Shown here one piece after another: positions 45,559 through 54,400 of a stretch of 64,000 bases of DNA. Position 1 is the stretch's first letter. Each line of letters opens with the position of its first letter. The notes under the pieces are model-generated. The model was not told where the DNA came from. It worked only from the letters and a program-made list of their open reading frames with translations, and did not search any database. The position numbers and the translations under genes were made by a program. This DNA is from Massilia mucilaginosa (GTDB taxonomy: Bacteria > Pseudomonadota > Gammaproteobacteria > Burkholderiales > Burkholderiaceae_D), in the NCBI RefSeq assembly GCF_011682145.1, contig NZ_WHJH01000008.1, forward strand, positions 124,001-188,000, written 5' to 3'.

Positions 45559-47343
45559 ATGTCGCACATTTTTGCGGCCGGCCTGGCGTTGCTGCTGCTC
45601 ACGGGCTGCCAGCAGCGCGCCAGCGAGCCGGCGCCACCGAAAACCCTGCACGCGTTCGAGGACGACGCACAGCTGGAGGCGTTTTTCAAGGACCAGCCGG
45701 CAGCGGCCGGGCCGCTCGACGCGGCAGCGCCGGCGCCCGCAGGCGCCCTTGCACAGCGCGACAGCGCCCTCGCCGCCGAGCACGGCAGGCACCTGGTGCT
45801 GCTGCGCCGCGGGCGCCTGTTTACCGTCGAGATCGGCAAGGACCAGCTCAAGCCGGTGGCGGCGCTCGATGCCTTCGCCCCCGGCGGCGCCGGGATGAGC
45901 CGCTATGACGAGCTGATCGTGTCGGAGGACACGCTGGCGGTGATCGGCTACAGCGAAGCGGAGCGCAGCACCGGCATCAACCTGTTCGACATCGACGCCG
46001 GCGGCCGCCTGGCGTTTCGCGCCAGCTACCTGCTGCGCGCCGGCGACGGCGCGCCGGGCAGCCTCGCCATCAGCCAGATCGACAGCAAGCTGGTGCTGTA
46101 CGCAGCGGGCGCGCCCGATCCGCTCGGCGCCGACCCGCTGGCCGTGCTGCCGGCGCTGCGCGCAGGTCCGGCGCCGTTCGGGCGGATCATTCCGGCCAGC
46201 CGCGTGTACCGCCTCGACGCCGCCATCGACAGCCGCCTGGCGCTGCACAGCGTCACCGTGTGCGACCTGGCCACGCGCACGCTGCGCTGCGACGCCAGCA
46301 CCGTGCTGGCGCCGCGCGCGCGGGCCGTTTACATGGCCTCGCAAGCGCTGTATGTATGGACGCTGCCGTACGCGGGCGAGTCCGGCGCCGGACTGGTGCG
46401 CATGCCGTTCAACGGTGGCGCGCCGGGCGCGGTGCGGGTCGCGGGCGCCCCGCACGACCGCTACTCGTTCCACGAAAGCGCGGACGCCCACCTGAACGTG
46501 CTGGTGGGCGCGGACGGCGCCACCCGTTCCTGGCGCAGCCAGGGCGGCGCCGGCGCCCTGGCCTTGCTGCGCCTGCCGCTGCAAGCGTTTTCCGACGGCA
46601 GCGAGCGCGCGCCCATGGCCAGCTACAAGGACTTGCCCGATTTTTCCTCGGCGCCGCTGCGCAACCGCTTCATCGGCCCGTGGCTGGTGTACGGCGGCGC
46701 GGCCGGTAGCGCCGACGGCCGCGCGCCGCTGTACGCGCTGCGCTGGGATGGCACCGGCGGATTGCAGCGCCTGCAACTGGCGCACCCGGTCGAGCGCATC
46801 GCGGCCATGGGCGTGGACGCGGTGGTGGCCGGGCAGGCGCGCAGCGCGCTGCACCTGAGCAGTATCAGGCTGGGAGCGGGCCCGGACCAGCCGGCCACCG
46901 TGGCCAGCACCTATGTCCATCCGAACGCCCAGGAAACGCCGGCGCCGGTCCAGGAGCCGTATTACGCCGCCCAGCGCCCCGGCCAGGGCATGCTCGGCCT
47001 GGCGATCGTGGAAGCCGCCCGGCCGGACCAGAGCGACGGCGCGATCGGCGCGGTAGCCGGCGCGACATCTGGCGCGGTAGCCGACGCGGTAGCCGACGCG
47101 GTAGCCGACGCGGCATCGGTGCTGTACCTGCGCAACACCGCGCTCAAGCTGCGCGAACTGGGCGCGCTCAAGGCCCAGCACGACGCGCCCGGGGACCAGG
47201 CGGCCTGGTACGGCAACGCCCGTCCGCTGTTCGTGCAGGGACGCATGTTTGCCCTGCTGGGCGATGAACTGGTGGAAGGCAAGCTGAAAAACGGCCGCCT
47301 GCGCGAAGCGCGGCGCATTAACTACGCTCCGGCGGCCCCTTGA
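45559..47343 (+). CDS. Beta-propeller lipoprotein
   Basis: A 594-aa protein. A lipoprotein signal ends in LLLTGC (Cys 17), so it is membrane-attached. The body reads as WD/Kelch-like beta-propeller strands, with YDELIVSEDTLAVIGYS and NLFDIDAGGRLAFRASYLL resembling secreted C-terminal beta-propeller (PF09826-type) proteins. A low-complexity segment near ~500-520 is coded by three 12-bp repeats and gives repeated V-A-D-A. AGGAGA lies 9 bp before ATG 45559. It converges with and overlaps by 26 bp the next minus-strand gene. Role unknown. Confidence 0.7.
   Translation: MSHIFAAGLALLLLTGCQQRASEPAPPKTLHAFEDDAQLEAFFKDQPAAAGPLDAAAPAPAGALAQRDSALAAEHGRHLVLLRRGRLFTVEIGKDQLKPVAALDAFAPGGAGMSRYDELIVSEDTLAVIGYSEAERSTGINLFDIDAGGRLAFRASYLLRAGDGAPGSLAISQIDSKLVLYAAGAPDPLGADPLAVLPALRAGPAPFGRIIPASRVYRLDAAIDSRLALHSVTVCDLATRTLRCDASTVLAPRARAVYMASQALYVWTLPYAGESGAGLVRMPFNGGAPGAVRVAGAPHDRYSFHESADAHLNVLVGADGATRSWRSQGGAGALALLRLPLQAFSDGSERAPMASYKDLPDFSSAPLRNRFIGPWLVYGGAAGSADGRAPLYALRWDGTGGLQRLQLAHPVERIAAMGVDAVVAGQARSALHLSSIRLGAGPDQPATVASTYVHPNAQETPAPVQEPYYAAQRPGQGMLGLAIVEAARPDQSDGAIGAVAGATSGAVADAVADAVADAASVLYLRNTALKLRELGALKAQHDAPGDQAAWYGNARPLFVQGRMFALLGDELVEGKLKNGRLREARRINYAPAAP
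47074..47109. repeat. Three 12-bp tandem repeats inside the propeller gene
   Basis: GCGGTAGCCGAC repeated three times, in frame (Ala-Val-Ala-Asp), with partial and degenerate copies on both sides. Reverse-complemented, the unit differs by two bases from that at 34294-34329. Confidence 0.8.
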
Positions 47344-47785
47344 TCGCGTAACCACGCAGCGCCTGTTCGAGCGCGTACAGGCGCCAGCGCAGGCGGTCCG
47401 GTCCGGGGTTCGGATGGATGCTCACGAGCACCGTCAGCTCGCCGCTGACGCGCGCGCTGCACGGCAACTGCAATTCGGTGGCGCGCTCGAAGGGCAGGCG
47501 GAATTCCTGGCCCGGCATCAGGCGCAGGCCGCCGACCTGGTGCGGCACGCTGTCGCTGTTCCTGAGCAGCAGCACGTCGCGCAAGCCCACGGTCAGGCGC
47601 ACCACCGGCGGCAGCACCTCGGCCCTGTCGCCGGCGCGGCGGCGTTCGGCGGCGTGTTCGGGAATGTCGAGCAGGAAATCGCGGCTGCCCGGGCGGATCG
47701 GCGCCATCGCGGCCCACACCAGCAGCAGCAGGAACGAGGCGAGCAGGAGCGAGGCGAGCCAGTGGCGGCGCAGGTACTGTTCCAC
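47318..47785 (-). CDS. Membrane-anchored small protein, possibly cupredoxin-like
   Basis: A 155-aa protein. One N-terminal membrane helix (~10-30, LASLLLASFLLLLVWAAMAP) is followed by a soluble beta-rich domain. The stretch LLRNSDSVPHQVGGLRLMPG followed by LPCSARVSGELTVLVSIHP resembles the copper-site His/Cys arrangement of cupredoxin-fold proteins, but the ligand set is not complete by eye. Its 3' end overlaps the convergent propeller gene by 26 bp. I cannot name a function. Confidence 0.5.
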   Translation of the reverse strand: MEQYLRRHWLASLLLASFLLLLVWAAMAPIRPGSRDFLLDIPEHAAERRRAGDRAEVLPPVVRLTVGLRDVLLLRNSDSVPHQVGGLRLMPGQEFRLPFERATELQLPCSARVSGELTVLVSIHPNPGPDRLRWRLYALEQALRGYAIKGPPERS

Positions 47786-47828
47786 GCTCAGCGGCCCGCC
47801 GGCGGAGCCGGTGTCGGCAAGCGCAGCG

Positions 47829-48008
47829 TCAAGGATCGATCACCGCGGCGCAGGCGTCGGTCGGCAGCGCGGCCACGTGCCCGACCACGGGAACCATCTT
47901 GATCACGGCCGAACCGACGCGGCAAGGCGCCGCCAGCACGCCGCAACCGCTCAGCACGGCCGGCAGCAGGAGGATGGTAGCGATACGGCAAACCAGGCGG
48001 GCATTCAT
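47829..48008 (-). CDS. Small lipoprotein (DUF6726-like), 59 aa
   Basis: Minus-strand ATG at 48008-48006, TGA at 47831-47829. The peptide has a short lipoprotein signal (MNARLVCRIATILLLPAVLSGC), giving lipobox LSGC with Cys 22. The mature part contains APCRVGSAVIKMVPVVGHVA and ends in CAAVIDP, with two further Cys. This compact pattern matches small lipoproteins common in Burkholderiales (DUF6726-type, from memory). It lies 43 bp upstream of the membrane-anchored protein gene on the same strand, so the two probably form an operon. Function unknown. Confidence 0.75.
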   Translation of the reverse strand: MNARLVCRIATILLLPAVLSGCGVLAAPCRVGSAVIKMVPVVGHVAALPTDACAAVIDP

Positions 48009-48115
48009 CGTGAAATCCGGGGAAAGTGAGGGTGAGAAAGAATTGTAAATGGCGCGCTACAATGGCGACAACCATTTAGAGGTAACAAAACGTTTGTGCG
48101 CCACATAGTGATAGG

Positions 48116-48835
48116 ATGGAGTCAATGAATTCAGCCACCCGTGAGCTACATATCGGCATCGTTGCCTGCTCGGCCGAGGGGGCGGCGCTGTGCTACCGCA
48201 CCATCTGCCACGAGGGCGCGCGCCAGCTCGGCCCCTACGAGCATCCGCAACTGACCATGCATTCGCACGCGCTGGCCGCCTACATGCGCTGCATCGACGC
48301 CGACGACTGGGCGGGCGTGGGCGAGCTGATGCTCTCGTCGGCGCACAAGCTGGCCAGCGCCGGCGCCGATTTCCTGATCTGCCCCGACAACACGATTCAC
48401 CAGGCGCTGGCGCCGATCCTGGCGCGCTCGCCCCTGCCGTGGCTGCACATCGCCGACGTGGTGGCCGACGAAGCGCTGGCGCGCGGCTACAAGCGCGTCG
48501 GCCTGACCGGCACGCGCTGGCTGGTCGAGAGCGAAGTCTATCCCGACCGCTTCGCCGCGCACGGCCTGGCCACAGTGCGCCCGGGCCTGGCGGCGCGCGT
48601 GGAAATCAACCGCATCATCATGGACGAGCTGGTCAACGGCGAATGCAAGCCGGCGGCAATCGCCTATTTCCAAAAAACCATCACACGAATGAAAGATGGC
48701 GGCTGCGACGCGGTCGTGCTGGGCTGCACGGAAATCCCGCTGATCATGAACAACAGCAATTCGCCCCTGCCCACGCTCGATTCGACCCGGCTGCTGGCGC
48801 GCGCCGCGCTGCGCCATGCGATCGGACAGGAATGA
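48116..48835 (+). CDS. Aspartate/glutamate racemase family protein
   Basis: A 239-aa protein of the Asp/Glu/hydantoin racemase family. Both catalytic cysteines are in place: CPDNTIHQ (~91) and LGCTEIPLI (~200). The N-terminal block IGIVACSAEGAALCYRTIC replaces the usual G-G-x-G-x-x-A-T loop, and HADVV-like IADVVADEA and KRVGLTGTR blocks follow. It would interconvert L- and D-amino acids (aspartate most likely for this subgroup). ATG 48116 and ATG 48125 are both possible; the second has GGATGGAG just upstream. Confidence 0.83.
   Translation: MESMNSATRELHIGIVACSAEGAALCYRTICHEGARQLGPYEHPQLTMHSHALAAYMRCIDADDWAGVGELMLSSAHKLASAGADFLICPDNTIHQALAPILARSPLPWLHIADVVADEALARGYKRVGLTGTRWLVESEVYPDRFAAHGLATVRPGLAARVEINRIIMDELVNGECKPAAIAYFQKTITRMKDGGCDAVVLGCTEIPLIMNNSNSPLPTLDSTRLLARAALRHAIGQE
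48532..48540. other. No feature; interior of the racemase gene
   Basis: Listed only to note that I looked for a second start or frameshift here and saw none. The reading frame is continuous through the racemase gene. Confidence 0.1.
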
Positions 48836-48913
48836 CAGGCCGGCGGCCGGCCGGCCCGGCCTGCGCGGCCCGGCCTGATTGACACGGCCGCCCAAAACTG
48901 CGACGATACGAGC

Positions 48914-48964
48914 ATGACAACGTTTAACTCACATGCCCGGTATTTGAATTGGTGGCTGCGCTGA
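48914..48964 (+). CDS. Trp-rich leader peptide upstream of trpS
   Basis: A 16-codon open frame, ATG 48914 to TGA 48962-48964, encoding MTTFNSHARYLNWWLR. Codons 13 and 14 (48950-48955) are two consecutive TGG. It lies in the 238-bp leader region of trpS, directly before a set of mutually exclusive hairpins ending in an intrinsic terminator. Tandem Trp codons in a short leader are the sensing element of transcription attenuation by charged tRNA-Trp. An RBS before the ATG is weak (ACGAGC). Confidence 0.8.
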   Translation: MTTFNSHARYLNWWLR

Positions 48965-49030
48965 CATCGCGCGGCGCTTGCACCATCATGTGTTTTCCAT
49001 GAACGCCGCCTCGATTGGGCGGCGTTTTTT
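48955..49030 (+). promoter_or_regulatory. Tryptophan attenuator of trpS
   Basis: Region 1 (48955-48961, overlapping the second Trp codon's last base) pairs with region 2 (48969-48975) with one G-U. Region 2 (48971-48976, GCGGCG) pairs with region 3 (49004-49009, CGCCGC). Region 3 (49002-49010) pairs with region 4 (49018-49026) as a 9-bp stem followed by TTTTTT (49025-49030). A ribosome stalled at the TGG pair would cover region 1, free region 2 to pair with region 3, and prevent the terminator. Low tryptophanyl-tRNA would thus raise trpS expression. Confidence 0.8.
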
Positions 49031-49073
49031 ATGAGCGTTTTCCGATAGGGGCACCCACCCAAGGACTATCGAA

Positions 49074-50093
<1,020 letters not shown>

Positions 50094-50096
50094 TCC

Positions 50097-50831
50097 TCAG
50101 CGGTAGCGCGCCAGGATGGCCTCCACGCTGCCATCCTCGATCAAGCCGTTGATGGCCTGGTCGACGTCCTCGAACGGCACCCCGGCCTTTTTCGAGAACG
50201 CGCACTGCGCCTTGAACGAGGCGAACACCAGGTCCTGGCGCAGCTTCAGGGCCTTGTTGATGCGCATCTGGTACGCCAGCGTCGCCTGTCCGATCACGGT
50301 ATGGCGCACGCTGCCGGCCATCAGTTTGCGCAAATTTTCTTCCATGGTCACCGATTCGCTGCGCTGGAAGCGCAATCCCAGCACCTGCTCGACGCGCGGA
50401 TAACGGTAGCCGGACACCGTGCCGACCGGGCGGTCGCGCAGGTCGGCCAGCGAACGCACCGGCGGCGCGCCCTGCTGCGAAGCGACCACTTCGGCGTCCG
50501 GGATGAGCGGACGGCTCCAGTCGAAATGCCCGTCGATCCAGAACGGGCGCACGTAGCAGATGCCGTCGGCCGTGCCGGCGTCGAGGGTGGCGCTGACCTG
50601 GTCTCCGCTCACGCTGATCCAGGCGATGCCACGACCCAGGCGGCGCGCGATGGCCTCGCCCAGATCCTTGAGGATGCCCCCGGTCAGCTTGTTATTCTGG
50701 AAACGGGTCAGCGGCATGGTCTGGTTCAGCGGCGCGATCATGACCAGCTGCGCCTCCGCGCTGGCGCTGGCGGCGAGCGGGGCACAGAGAGGGACAATCA
50801 GCGCGAAGAGGCAGGCGGGTCGCTTGAACAT
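50097..50831 (-). CDS. Periplasmic solute-binding protein (SBP family 3)
   Basis: A 244-aa protein. Signal peptide ~1-25 (LFALIVPLCAPLAASASA) then an SBP_bac_3 fold: LTGGILKDLGEAIARRLG near the start, the GTADGICYVRP loop, and RPVGTVSGYRYPRVE at the hinge. There is no ABC permease or ATPase gene nearby. Stand-alone members of this type in Betaproteobacteria are usually annotated as transporter substrate-binding proteins of unknown ligand. Its start overlaps the end of the upstream membrane-protein gene by 34 bp. Confidence 0.8.
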   Translation of the reverse strand: MFKRPACLFALIVPLCAPLAASASAEAQLVMIAPLNQTMPLTRFQNNKLTGGILKDLGEAIARRLGRGIAWISVSGDQVSATLDAGTADGICYVRPFWIDGHFDWSRPLIPDAEVVASQQGAPPVRSLADLRDRPVGTVSGYRYPRVEQVLGLRFQRSESVTMEENLRKLMAGSVRHTVIGQATLAYQMRINKALKLRQDLVFASFKAQCAFSKKAGVPFEDVDQAINGLIEDGSVEAILARYR

Positions 50832-51340
50832 GGGCTGGCAAGGTGGTCGGACGGTAGCTCTAATGTACCATCGGCAACGCTTTCGAACCCATTTCTTTCG
50901 TGCAAATCATACAGACTCACGGTGTCGGCACGGCGGATTTGCCACAGGCGCCACAAGGCCAGCATCAGCAGGCCAGCGGGACCGCCAAAATAGCGCAGCC
51001 AGTTGCCGGCGATGCGCAGATCCGTCAGGGACAGCGGCACCCTGAACAGCGCAAAAGCCAGGAACAGCGCGCCGCACACGTAGCCGGCCAGCACCCAGCG
51101 CGGCGTCGCGATGAGCAAGTCTGAAATATGCCACGCGGTCCAGCCCAGGGAACCCAGGCTCAGCCAGCCCATCACCACCACGCCGGCAAAGATGGCTTGC
51201 GGCGAAGCGAATGCGAGCGCGCTGGCGGCGGCCCCTCCCAGGACGACGGCGCCGCCCGCTATGGTGAGCAGGCACCAGCCCAGCAGCGCCGGAAACGAGC
51301 ACAGTGCAAGGACGATGGCAAGTAGTCGAAGGGGGTGCAT
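50798..51340 (-). CDS. Uncharacterised four-helix membrane protein
   Basis: A 180-aa protein with hydrophobic segments at about 5-28, 30-65 (two close segments, possibly one re-entrant) and 84-105, plus a half-hydrophobic stretch near 115-130. The C-terminal ~45 residues are polar and Ser/Pro-rich, extending over the start of the downstream gene. No family motif is recognised. Same strand as, and overlapping, the solute-binding protein gene, so probably co-transcribed. Confidence 0.55.
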   Translation of the reverse strand: MHPLRLLAIVLALCSFPALLGWCLLTIAGGAVVLGGAAASALAFASPQAIFAGVVVMGWLSLGSLGWTAWHISDLLIATPRWVLAGYVCGALFLAFALFRVPLSLTDLRIAGNWLRYFGGPAGLLMLALWRLWQIRRADTVSLYDLHERNGFESVADGTLELPSDHLASPCSSDPPASSR

Positions 51341-51436
51341 GGGGAGGGGGAATGGCTAAAAGGCGATCATACCTCACCCGCGAACGCCCCCGGCCGCCGT
51401 CAGGAAAATCAGCGTTGTCGTCGTTGACACCGTTAA

Positions 51437-51724
51437 TCACGAGGCAGGGGCTAGCTCAGTCCCGTCAACATCCATCTTCTCCAGATTCTTCCGCGCCAAC
51501 ATCAAACTATGCGCGGTCTGCATCCCCATCCACGCCTCTGCCGACAAATCAAACACTTGCGATAGCCTGACAGCCATCGCGGCGAACAGCTCGGCTTTTC
51601 CGGAAATGACACGGGAAACGCTGGATTTATCCACTTGCAAACGCTTTGCCAGCTCGCTTTGCGTCATGCCCAGCGGTTCAAGGTAGACCTCGCGAAGATA
51701 CTCGCCCGGGTGCATGGTGATCAT
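51437..51724 (-). CDS. HigA-family XRE antitoxin-like regulator (orphan)
   Basis: A 95-aa protein typical of HigA: HPGEYLREVYLEPLGMTQSE, the HTH LAKRLQVDKSSVSRVISGK, then AAMAVRLSQVFDLSAEAWMG and a helical tail. HigA antitoxins repress their own operon and neutralise a HigB RNase encoded immediately upstream. Upstream here (51725-51961) there is no HigB frame, only short unrelated open frames, so this copy is solitary. It may be a decayed toxin-antitoxin locus or a recruited regulator. Confidence 0.85.
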   Translation of the reverse strand: MITMHPGEYLREVYLEPLGMTQSELAKRLQVDKSSVSRVISGKAELFAAMAVRLSQVFDLSAEAWMGMQTAHSLMLARKNLEKMDVDGTELAPAS

Positions 51725-51961
51725 ATGCCCTCCAATAGTGCGCGTTGCGCAACATGCAACAATCAATTCAAAAAACGTCAATTGGCAGTACCGCCGCTCA
51801 TGGACGGGTATCCAATGTTGGCCGCTTCAGAATACAACGTCAGCGATCGACTCGGAAGTCGAGCGTCAGCCTGAAGTGCATAACAGCCTGCGTTTCTAAA
51901 TGCGGGGCAGCGGTACTGAAGGATTGCGCAGGCACGACCGCAATCCCGCCCGCCCCCGGCC

Positions 51962-54400
51962 TCAGAAGTCGAGCGCCGCCGACAGCACCACGCTGCGCGG
52001 CGCACCCGCGATCAAGGTGCCCCAGGTCGAGGCGCCGGCCCAGTAATCCTTGCCGGTCGCATTGCGCACGCCGGCGCGCAGCACCAGCGGCCGGCCCGAC
52101 ACCGTAGTACGGTAGCGCGCACCGACGTCGACGCTGGTCCAACTGTCGAGACGCTGGGTGTTGGCCTGGTTGGCGTACTGGGCGCCGCTGTGCTGCAGCG
52201 CGCCGGTCAGGGTCAGGCCGGGCAGCTGCGCCAGGTCCCACTCGGCGCTCATGGTCACGTGCAGTTTGGGCACGCCGACCGCCGTCTTGCCGAGCGTGGC
52301 GGCGCTGTTGGTCTTGACCAGCTCGGCGTCGGTCCAGCTGGCGCCGCCGGACAGGCGAACCGCCTCGCCCAGCTTGCCGTAGGCGTTGACTTCGATGCCG
52401 CGGTTGCGCTGTTCGCCATCGGCGGCGTAGCGGTTGGCGGTGAGCTGGCCGCTCGGACGGGTGATCTGGAACAGGCTCACGCTGGTCACCAGGCTGCCAT
52501 GGTCGACCTTGGCGCCGATCTCGTTCTGCTTCGCCTTGTACGGGGCGAATGCTTCGCCGGCGTTGACGGCGGTATCGGGCGCGCTGTCGCCCTTGCTCAG
52601 GCCGCCGATGTGGTTGGCATACAGCGACACCTGGCGCCACGGTTTGAGCACCACCCCGGCCATCGGCGTGACCGCGCTGCGCTCGTACTGGGCGCTGGTC
52701 GCGCCGGACGCGCCGAAGGTGTCGGCGCGGATGGTTTGATGGCGCAGGCCCAGCATCACTTGCAGGCGCTGGTCGAACATGGACAGCATGTCGGCCAGCG
52801 CCACGCCGCCCAGGCGGTTGGTCGAGCGCTTGCTCACCAGCGCCGGCGGGGCGACGTCCTGGGCCGGCCGCACCACAGGCATATACATGTTCGAGGTGTA
52901 CAGGCGGCCGGCCTGGGTGCCCATCGCCAGACGGTCTTCGTACTGGCTCCACTCCAGGGTGAGCTGATGCTTGACCGGGCCGCCGGCAAAGCGCGCGCGC
53001 AGGCCGGCGCTCACCGAGCTGCGCTCGACGTCGAACACGGCGCGGGTCGGCAGCACGCTGGTGTCGCCGGCGGCGTTGACGATCGAGGGCGTGTTGAACA
53101 GGCGCTCGACGTCGCTGCGGGCGGTGCCGGCGCTGGCGAACAGGGTCAGCTGCTCGTGCGCCTGGTAGTCGGCGCGCAGCAGGGCCGAGCGCTCGCGGCT
53201 GTCGTACCATTCCCAGCGCTGGGTCAGATTGGTGCGGCCGCCGGGCGCGCGCGGCACGGCCAGGCCGGCGCTCAGCGACGGCCGGCGCGACGGGGCGTCG
53301 ACGTCTTCGCGCTGGTCGATCAGGTCGAGCGTGGCGCGCAGGCGTTCGCCCTGGTAGTCCAGCGCCAGCGCGCCCAGGCTGGCCTTGCGCGACTGATTGT
53401 CGATGGCGGTGTCGCCGCCGCGGTGGCTGGCGTTCAGGCGCGCGCCGAAGGCGCGCTCGGGCCCGAAACGGCGCGCCAGGTCGGTCTTGAGGCCCGCTTG
53501 CGCACTGCTGGCGTAGTCGGCCTGCACCCGGGTCAGGTCGGCGCCGGCGCGCTTGGGCACGACGTTGATGCTGCCGCCCACGCCGCTGTTGGGCGACATG
53601 CCGTAGACCATGGCGGCCGGGCCCTTGAGCACGTCGACCCGTTCGGCGTAGTCGGCCAGCAGGCGGTAGTTGGGGGCGACCCCGTACAGGCCGTCGAAGG
53701 CGATTTCGCCGATGTTGTTATCGCCGATGGCAAAACCGCGGATGAAAAAGGAATCGGCCACGTCGCCGCTGGGGGCGGTGCTGCGCACCGAAGGGTCGCG
53801 CGCGACCACGTCGGCGATGGTGGCGGCCTGCTGGTTGTCGATGGCCTGGGCGGTGAAGCTGGTCAGGTTGAACGGGGTGTTCATGGCGTCGACGTTGCCG
53901 AGCATGCCGAGGCGGCCGCCGCGCGCGACCTGGCCGCCGGCGTAGGCGTCGGGCAGCTCAAAGGCCGAGGTGTCAGCGCTGGCGGTCACGGTCACGCCGG
54001 GCAGGGTTGCCGCTGTTGCCGCCGCTGCTGTTGCCGATGGCGCCGGGGCCGCTGGCGGCACCGACTTTTTTAGCGTGTAGCTGCCGTCGGCGCGCGCGGC
54101 CAGTTCCAGGCCGCTGCCGGCCAGCAGGCGCGCCGCCGCTTCGCGCGCAGGGTAGCTGCCCGTCAGCGGGGCGGCGACGAGGCCCTCGGTCAGGGCCGGG
54201 TCGAACGAGAGCGCGATGCCGGCGTTGACGGCAAAGCCCGACAGCGCGCGTCCGAGCGGGCCGGCCGGGAGCTTGTAGCTTTGCACGGGAGCGCTGTCGA
54301 GCGTGACGGGAGCGGCGCCGGCCAGCGGCGCGGCCAGGGCCAGGCCGAGGCAGGCGATGCGGATGGCGTGATGGAGTCGGGTCGGACGTGGGTGCGGCAT
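51962..54400 (-). CDS. TonB-dependent siderophore receptor with STN signalling domain (FecA/FpvA type)
   Basis: An 812-aa outer-membrane receptor. Signal peptide ~1-30; secretin/TonB short N-terminal domain ~35-100 (YKLPAGPLGRALSGFAVNAG, typical of transducers); Ala/Pro linker; plug ~140-260 (FFIRGFAIGDNNIGEIAFDG, VLKGPAAMVYGMSPNSGVGG, INVVPKRAG); then a barrel ending in VVLSAALDF with a terminal Phe. The STN domain should contact the FecR-type protein encoded just upstream. It imports a ferric siderophore and reports its arrival. Start at 54400 was chosen for the signal peptide. Confidence 0.92.
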   Translation of the reverse strand: MPHPRPTRLHHAIRIACLGLALAAPLAGAAPVTLDSAPVQSYKLPAGPLGRALSGFAVNAGIALSFDPALTEGLVAAPLTGSYPAREAAARLLAGSGLELAARADGSYTLKKSVPPAAPAPSATAAAATAATLPGVTVTASADTSAFELPDAYAGGQVARGGRLGMLGNVDAMNTPFNLTSFTAQAIDNQQAATIADVVARDPSVRSTAPSGDVADSFFIRGFAIGDNNIGEIAFDGLYGVAPNYRLLADYAERVDVLKGPAAMVYGMSPNSGVGGSINVVPKRAGADLTRVQADYASSAQAGLKTDLARRFGPERAFGARLNASHRGGDTAIDNQSRKASLGALALDYQGERLRATLDLIDQREDVDAPSRRPSLSAGLAVPRAPGGRTNLTQRWEWYDSRERSALLRADYQAHEQLTLFASAGTARSDVERLFNTPSIVNAAGDTSVLPTRAVFDVERSSVSAGLRARFAGGPVKHQLTLEWSQYEDRLAMGTQAGRLYTSNMYMPVVRPAQDVAPPALVSKRSTNRLGGVALADMLSMFDQRLQVMLGLRHQTIRADTFGASGATSAQYERSAVTPMAGVVLKPWRQVSLYANHIGGLSKGDSAPDTAVNAGEAFAPYKAKQNEIGAKVDHGSLVTSVSLFQITRPSGQLTANRYAADGEQRNRGIEVNAYGKLGEAVRLSGGASWTDAELVKTNSAATLGKTAVGVPKLHVTMSAEWDLAQLPGLTLTGALQHSGAQYANQANTQRLDSWTSVDVGARYRTTVSGRPLVLRAGVRNATGKDYWAGASTWGTLIAGAPRSVVLSAALDF

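Follow-up and report, generated by a model that had tools for sequence, protein, structure and literature searches.

A predicted tryptophan attenuator upstream of trpS

The window, a 64,000-nucleotide stretch of Massilia mucilaginosa DNA, contains upstream of trpS a leader that we read, at a probability of about 90%, as a ribosome-mediated transcription attenuator setting the TrpS level by charged tRNA-Trp. A preceding sequence-only reading had taken the leader for a classical Trp attenuator; this interpretation is supported by the present analysis, and the description is right in every part visible from sequence. The downstream gene (49074 to 50093) is indeed that of a tRNA synthetase: trpS encodes a tryptophan--tRNA ligase of 339 aa, matching NCBIfam TIGR00233 with 228 bits (cut-off 176.75). 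TrpS proteins of Massilia rubra, M. aquatica and M. frigida are 98, 95, and 95% identical to that of the window, and the genome is close to these species. Upstream, the leader ORF is flanked by a racemase gene (48116 to 48835, amino acid racemase family), so that it sits between this gene and trpS.

The leader features and trpS lie on the forward strand. The leader ORF (48914 to 48964, with ATG at 48914 and TGA ending at 48964) consists of 16 codons plus stop and translates into MTTFNSHARYLNWWLR. As previously described, it holds two consecutive Trp codons (TGGTGG, 48950 to 48955, coordinates checked), which lie within region 1, and the trpS genes of relatives are preceded by similar leaders. 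RNA folding pairs 48950 to 48963 (region 1) with 48972 to 48985 (region 2), and 49003 to 49011 (region 3) with 49017 to 49025 (region 4). The core of the alternative 2:3 pairing is formed by 48971 to 48976 (GCGGCG) with 49004 to 49009, as obtained for an RNA masked to 12 nt past the first TGG and with region 4 absent. Thus, all three pairings of the sequence-only reading were given by folding, 2:3 under this masking, and they are mutually exclusive in the window leader. The 3:4 hairpin (49003 to 49025) likewise folds as claimed; its region 4, together with the T6 run at 49025 to 49030, makes up the 3′ part of a predicted intrinsic terminator (49017 to 49030).

Taken as a single sequence, the fold of the window leader is ordinary, with a z-score of -1.48 for the whole leader (15 of 200 shuffles as good) and -0.58 for the stretch after the leader stop (54/200); the case hence rests on comparison. 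A simple consensus scan of the window listed neither the terminator of the trpS leader nor its promoter. The terminator was presumably missed because G-U pairs took up Ts of the tail, and the promoter because its -10 box is weak.

Comparison of trpS loci and a probable leaderless start

A search with TrpS gave 80 related trpS loci. Demanding a W-containing leader ORF with TTGACA spacing, we found leaders at 52 of the 80 loci and none at the other 28; the Collimonas, Pandoraea, Methylophilus, and Methylobacillus loci among the 80 had no TTGACA-spaced leader. Since TTGACA was here a selection criterion, this count is unusable for promoter conservation, which was judged from a set chosen by a WW ORF alone. 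ATG ORFs of 8 to 30 codons containing WW were present in 54 of 101 trpS upstream pieces (350 nt), compared with 8 of 2020 dinucleotide shuffles; in this as in all other counts the species are related, and the loci are non-independent events. On tiles of the window, the same ORF test gave 6 hits in 364, and the promoter spacing was also present only in the trpS leader itself. The motif TTGAC[AG] was found 34 to 37 nt upstream of the in-frame leader ATG at 53 of the 54 loci picked by the WW ORF; the sole miss (L065) looks like a chance ORF. Leader, Trp codons, alternative pairings, and terminator hairpin all recur at trpS, and this conservation, on which the earlier proposal depended, extends over Oxalobacteraceae and other families of the order. 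In many species the leader peptides share positions such as S-H ahead of NWWRR.

In the window, the putative -35 box (TTGACA, 48879 to 48884) lies 35 nt upstream of the leader ATG. It is followed after 17 nt by a putative -10 box (GACGAT, 48902 to 48907; AACCAT in many relatives), which is a weak match to the sigma-70 consensus. With the 17-nt spacer, the leader ATG falls 6 to 7 nt past the -10 box in most loci, which is where transcription normally starts. The predicted transcription start would thus be the leader ATG or a position within 1 to 2 nt of it, which probably makes the trpS leader mRNA leaderless. Published examples of such Trp leaders are those of trpE(G) in Sinorhizobium (PMC7298713) and of trpE and trpS in Streptomyces lividans (PMC8079986).

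Alternative pairings and proposed mechanism

Folding in three states agreed with attenuation in all 53 leaders analyzed. The 3:4 hairpin formed both in the free RNA (53/53) and with a ribosome placed at the stop (53/53). When the 5′ part was masked, at least four of the six region 3 bases paired upstream in 53 of 53 leaders, compared with 29.4 expected from region shuffles. The antiterminator core (GCGGC:GCCGC) is identical in 41 of 41 distinct alignment rows and, being invariant, adds no covariation. From the 42-row alignment, RNAalifold retained the terminator alone. For the whole structure, covariation is modest: 6 pairs are changed on both sides, which is not exceptional (4.4 in shuffles, 72/500 as high), whereas 17 cells show such changes (8.2 in shuffles, 0/500 as high). 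The alignment comprised the window and 41 of the 52 locus leaders; omitted were seven divergent leaders (L047, L052, L059, L060, L063, L068, L071) and, by choice, four close to retained rows (L002, L035, L045, L049). In the Duganella rows of this alignment, the Trp codon is out of register. The pairings are borne out by folding and conservation together.

An additional helix, P0, pairs CACATG inside the leader ORF (48930 to 48935) with its complement CATGTG between regions 2 and 3 (48987 to 48992). In many relatives, the leader codons read TCACATC and the complement GATGTGA; pair variants include TCACATC:GATGTGA, GCACATC:GATGTGC, and CACATG:CATGTG. Both-side changes were seen for five of nine P0 pairs, and 76.6% of the cells pair. 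For 24 Oxalobacteraceae representatives, own strands gave -11.76 kcal/mol, compared with -9.88 kcal/mol for permuted ones (0/20000, relatedness ignored), and 17 of the 24 own pairs were better than their row median. Outside this family, a first choice of segment, which began past part of the 3′ strand, gave a null result (12 leaders, 13288 of 20000 permutations as low). With the segment reset, a change made only after this null had been seen, own pairs reached -10.74 against -8.15 kcal/mol in 11 leaders (48/20000, relatedness ignored) and beat the row median in 9 of 11; for 15 leaders including the g26 type (see below), 58 of 20000 permutations were as low. P0 is absent from the minimum-energy fold of the window. 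In our reading, P0 extends 1:2 and would hold untranslated leaders in the terminating form.

Stalling, termination, and regulation can be proposed from this anatomy and from known attenuators. RNA polymerase would initiate on the A of the leader ATG or very close to it, and a ribosome would probably load on the leaderless 5′ end. With plentiful charged tRNA-Trp, the ribosome would reach the UGA by region 2, 3:4 would pair, and transcription would stop at the T6 run, leaving an RNA of approximately 117 nt. With scarce charged tRNA-Trp, the ribosome would wait at UGG-UGG and cover region 1 together with the 5′ P0 strand, leaving region 2 to capture region 3 and permitting read-through into trpS. 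If the leader is not translated at all, P0 and 1:2 would form and favor termination.

Distribution and variants of the leader

A covariance model of the leader (R1) matched 174 of 392 genomes of the GTDB family, in 10 of 44 genera, with E-values that are rough. We inspected the best 30 matches and 16 weak or doubtful ones among the 174. All of the best 30 lie directly upstream of trpS. The 16 others comprise (i) ten at trpS; (ii) four elsewhere (G158, G176, G264, G312); and (iii) two near a contig end (G041, G202). One of the ten at trpS (G349, locus L143) has no recognisable WW leader, and six belong to genus g26, in which leaders such as MLFRTQLAKTQHWWRA have a TATACT box 7 nt upstream of the ATG and the same design. 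Of 17 genomes listed for the window genus, 12 match R1; the other five are without this TrpS type at E 1e-60.

At the same cut-off, 21 genomes in a sample of 160 from the order encode this TrpS type. Twenty upstream regions from this sample yielded 13 W leaders, 12 of them outside the window family. Leaders outside the family, for example MNSANATASFFWWWRLF and MTTFNASAFAYYYWWRH, encode very different peptides, with W(W)R kept. Both pairings form in the 14 correctly parsed of 16 leaders of the non-family or g26 type (L164 and L172 were mis-parsed).

Two elements of the sequence-only reading, present in the window, are not uniform among relatives: the Trp pair and the U-tract of the terminator. 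Such differences argue against a single mechanism throughout. Six Duganella and six Undibacterium loci have a single Trp codon, and these leaders may respond weakly. At least five Ts within the 8 bases after the hairpin occur in 44 of 53 leaders. In the remaining nine, namely Janthinobacterium L019, L031, L033, L035, L039, and L041 as well as L026, L043, and L068, there are fewer, which makes intrinsic termination doubtful there; control may act at another level. At five Undibacterium loci (L051, L054, L057, L062, L069), a terminator hairpin lies 58 to 61 nt after TTGACA, and the interval contains no ORF with W. Massilia horti (L013) keeps the terminator hairpin and the downstream segment upstream of trpS; a W leader and TTGACA are absent.

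Alternative explanations

The leader might chiefly serve to produce a small RNA or leader peptide that acts in trans, like Sinorhizobium rnTrpL/peTrpL, with control of trpS being secondary. The terminated RNA (about 117 nt), which would probably begin at the ORF start, fits such a role, as does a match of 23.1 bits (E 0.21, 48940 to 49029) to Rfam RF02552 (RcsR1), which we take to be the Rfam name of rnTrpL; this match is below the gathering threshold of 60. The recurrence of S-H before NWWRR in the peptides of many species also speaks for this reading, but the codons for S-H supply one P0 strand, so that RNA pairing can explain their conservation. As the best 30 model matches are, moreover, all placed directly before trpS, we regard a mainly trans-acting leader as unlikely.

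Alternatively, control could be exerted mostly at trpS translation initiation, at least in leaders lacking a U-tract. The segment between terminator and trpS (segment 5) is conserved and could pair either with the start region of trpS or with region 3 plus the terminator loop. The former pairing would yield a possible hairpin, H5 (49043 to 49071), at the trpS ribosome-binding site, in which CGATAG (49043 to 49048) pairs with CTATCG (49066 to 49071) and AAGGA (49061 to 49065) lies in the loop. In 24 representatives, own pairs were lower in energy than permuted ones for both pairings. H5 gave -10.01 kcal/mol (permuted, -8.28), and region 3 paired with segment 5 gave -19.29 kcal/mol (permuted, -16.97); 0/20000 permutations were as low in each case, with relatedness ignored. 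Together with the nine of 53 leaders missing a U-tract, these pairings favor translational control. Against it, the window leader has its U-tract, and the folded accessibility of the ribosome-binding site is nearly the same in both states. The idea that the antiterminator opens this site was rejected, its accessibility being 0.487 compared with 0.489 in the terminator state and higher in 23 of 45 leaders (eight of the 53, L032, L047, L052, L059, L060, L063, L068, and L071, were omitted). Control mostly at initiation thus appears quite unlikely, and transcription attenuation is the reading we retain.

A constitutive terminator accompanied by a chance short ORF, with no tryptophan regulation, would account for the W-less terminators upstream of trpS in the five Undibacterium loci and L013, but it is very unlikely given the frequency of WW ORFs (54/101 against 8/2020 in shuffles), their promoter spacing (53/54), and a 2:3 pairing commoner than shuffles predict (53 against 29.4). 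Finally, a T-box, the usual control of trpS in Firmicutes, or another tRNA- or ligand-binding riboswitch can be dismissed as most improbable: cmscan of 46000 to 52000 against all Rfam up to E 5 returned three sub-threshold sRNA families, none of them a T-box, and an ORF with Trp codons is present instead.

Relation to known systems

The trpL attenuator of Escherichia coli and other enterics (RF00513) has in common with the leader described here tandem Trp codons in region 1, mutually exclusive pairings, a stop codon by region 2, and a terminator with a U-tract. It differs in preceding trpEDCBA, whereas the present element precedes trpS, is probably leaderless, and has the extra helix P0; to our knowledge, the E. 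coli trp leader has no P0-like helix. The Rfam model RF00513 (Trp_leader) had no match in 46000 to 52000 (cmscan up to E 5) and none in the whole genome at E 0.001, with a positive E. coli control. No Rfam family reached its threshold in seven of the comparison loci.

A synthetase operon attenuated in response to the cognate amino acid is known in E. coli pheST (pheM), with Phe codons and PheRS in place of the Trp codons and TrpS found here. In Streptomyces coelicolor, the gene for a second TrpRS is controlled by attenuation. The sequence-only reading had set the synthetase gene against the biosynthetic operons in which Trp attenuation is textbook knowledge; trpS is indeed the downstream gene, but such an arrangement is not unprecedented. 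For Streptomyces avermitilis, a candidate attenuator of trpS2 was predicted (PMC1262725). For the S. lividans trpL2-trpS transcript, which is leaderless, attenuation is supported by RNA-seq (PMC8079986). It shares with the present case a Trp leader peptide before a TrpS gene, but belongs to another phylum and, going by the description in the available part of that paper, contains a single Trp codon and lacks a U-rich tract. Titles cited in PMC9437257 report an inducible, indolmycin-resistant second TrpRS in S. coelicolor; there, the inducible enzyme is one of two, whereas the attenuated TrpS is the only one found in the window genome. Ribosome profiling of the proteobacterium Caulobacter crescentus placed a leader CDS on the trpS mRNA (PMC4117421); this small ORF likewise precedes trpS, and the available part of that paper describes no attenuator structure. 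In Sinorhizobium meliloti, rnTrpL/peTrpL starts at the Trp leader ORF, its 5′ end coinciding with the ATG, but it controls trpE(G) and not trpS (PMC7298713). In the open-access literature, no trpS attenuator in Betaproteobacteria was among the matches listed. In view of the Streptomyces and Caulobacter precedents, this is a known kind of switch in a bacterial order for which no report was found; its particulars are the probable leaderless start and P0.

Genome context and significance

A pattern search of the genome for a second Trp leader of this type gave 18 matches, compared with 12 in a reversed control; judged from the matches, the trpS leader alone was taken as real. A separate Trp-rich leader, MFFIKKHNVTQTGSIEAWLWRRWQSWAK, lies ahead of trpE on the reverse strand in this genome (L093, G000:C144), with its ATG 180 nt before the trpE ATG. 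After it come a hairpin (-18.4 kcal/mol, flanks included) and T6; inspected by eye, no promoter box was apparent directly before its ATG. As trpE has its own Trp-rich leader, hairpin, and T6 run, trpE and trpS of this genome are probably both attenuated.

The 339-aa attenuated protein is the only TrpS found in the window genome. Of the five genomes of the window genus without an R1 match, four (G094, G170, G213, G231) encode a longer TrpS, about 400 aa where the reading frame is intact (it is interrupted in G231), and in G222 the only TrpS match is below the family cut-off. The longer TrpS also occurs in 29 of 58 R1-matching genomes examined at E 1e-100 (e.g. G011 and G052; two of the 29 matches, G139 and G203, are partial) and is absent in 29; these 58 were hand-picked from the 174 in list order with gaps and are hence a non-random set. 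In total, 61 genomes were searched and 32 were positive, three of them without an R1 match. Six longer TrpS genes were inspected, two of them in G011 and G052. They start 3 to 8 nt past another open frame and have no WW leader.

Tentatively, and with considerable doubt, attenuator and 339-aa TrpS may be viewed as an inducible spare TrpS module of Burkholderiales, which would accompany an operon-embedded TrpS of about 400 aa in many genomes and would have replaced it in the window lineage. On this same doubtful footing, H5 and segment 5 may add a further level of control at the ribosome-binding site of trpS, one that may link translation to the attenuator switch and may have taken over where the U-tract was lost. 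If the spare-module reading is true, the only TrpS of the cell in the window lineage feeds back on its own product.

The proposed attenuator would sense charged tRNA-Trp, which the regulated enzyme itself directly produces; the switch would hence be a clean autoregulatory loop. Teaching on attenuation draws on biosynthetic operons, whereas the gene here is that of a synthetase. The arrangement recurs over several families of the order, with differing peptides and the same W(W)R and pairings. Its natural replicates, with one or two Trp codons, the U-tract kept or lost, and one or two TrpS, suit the study of how such a switch evolves.
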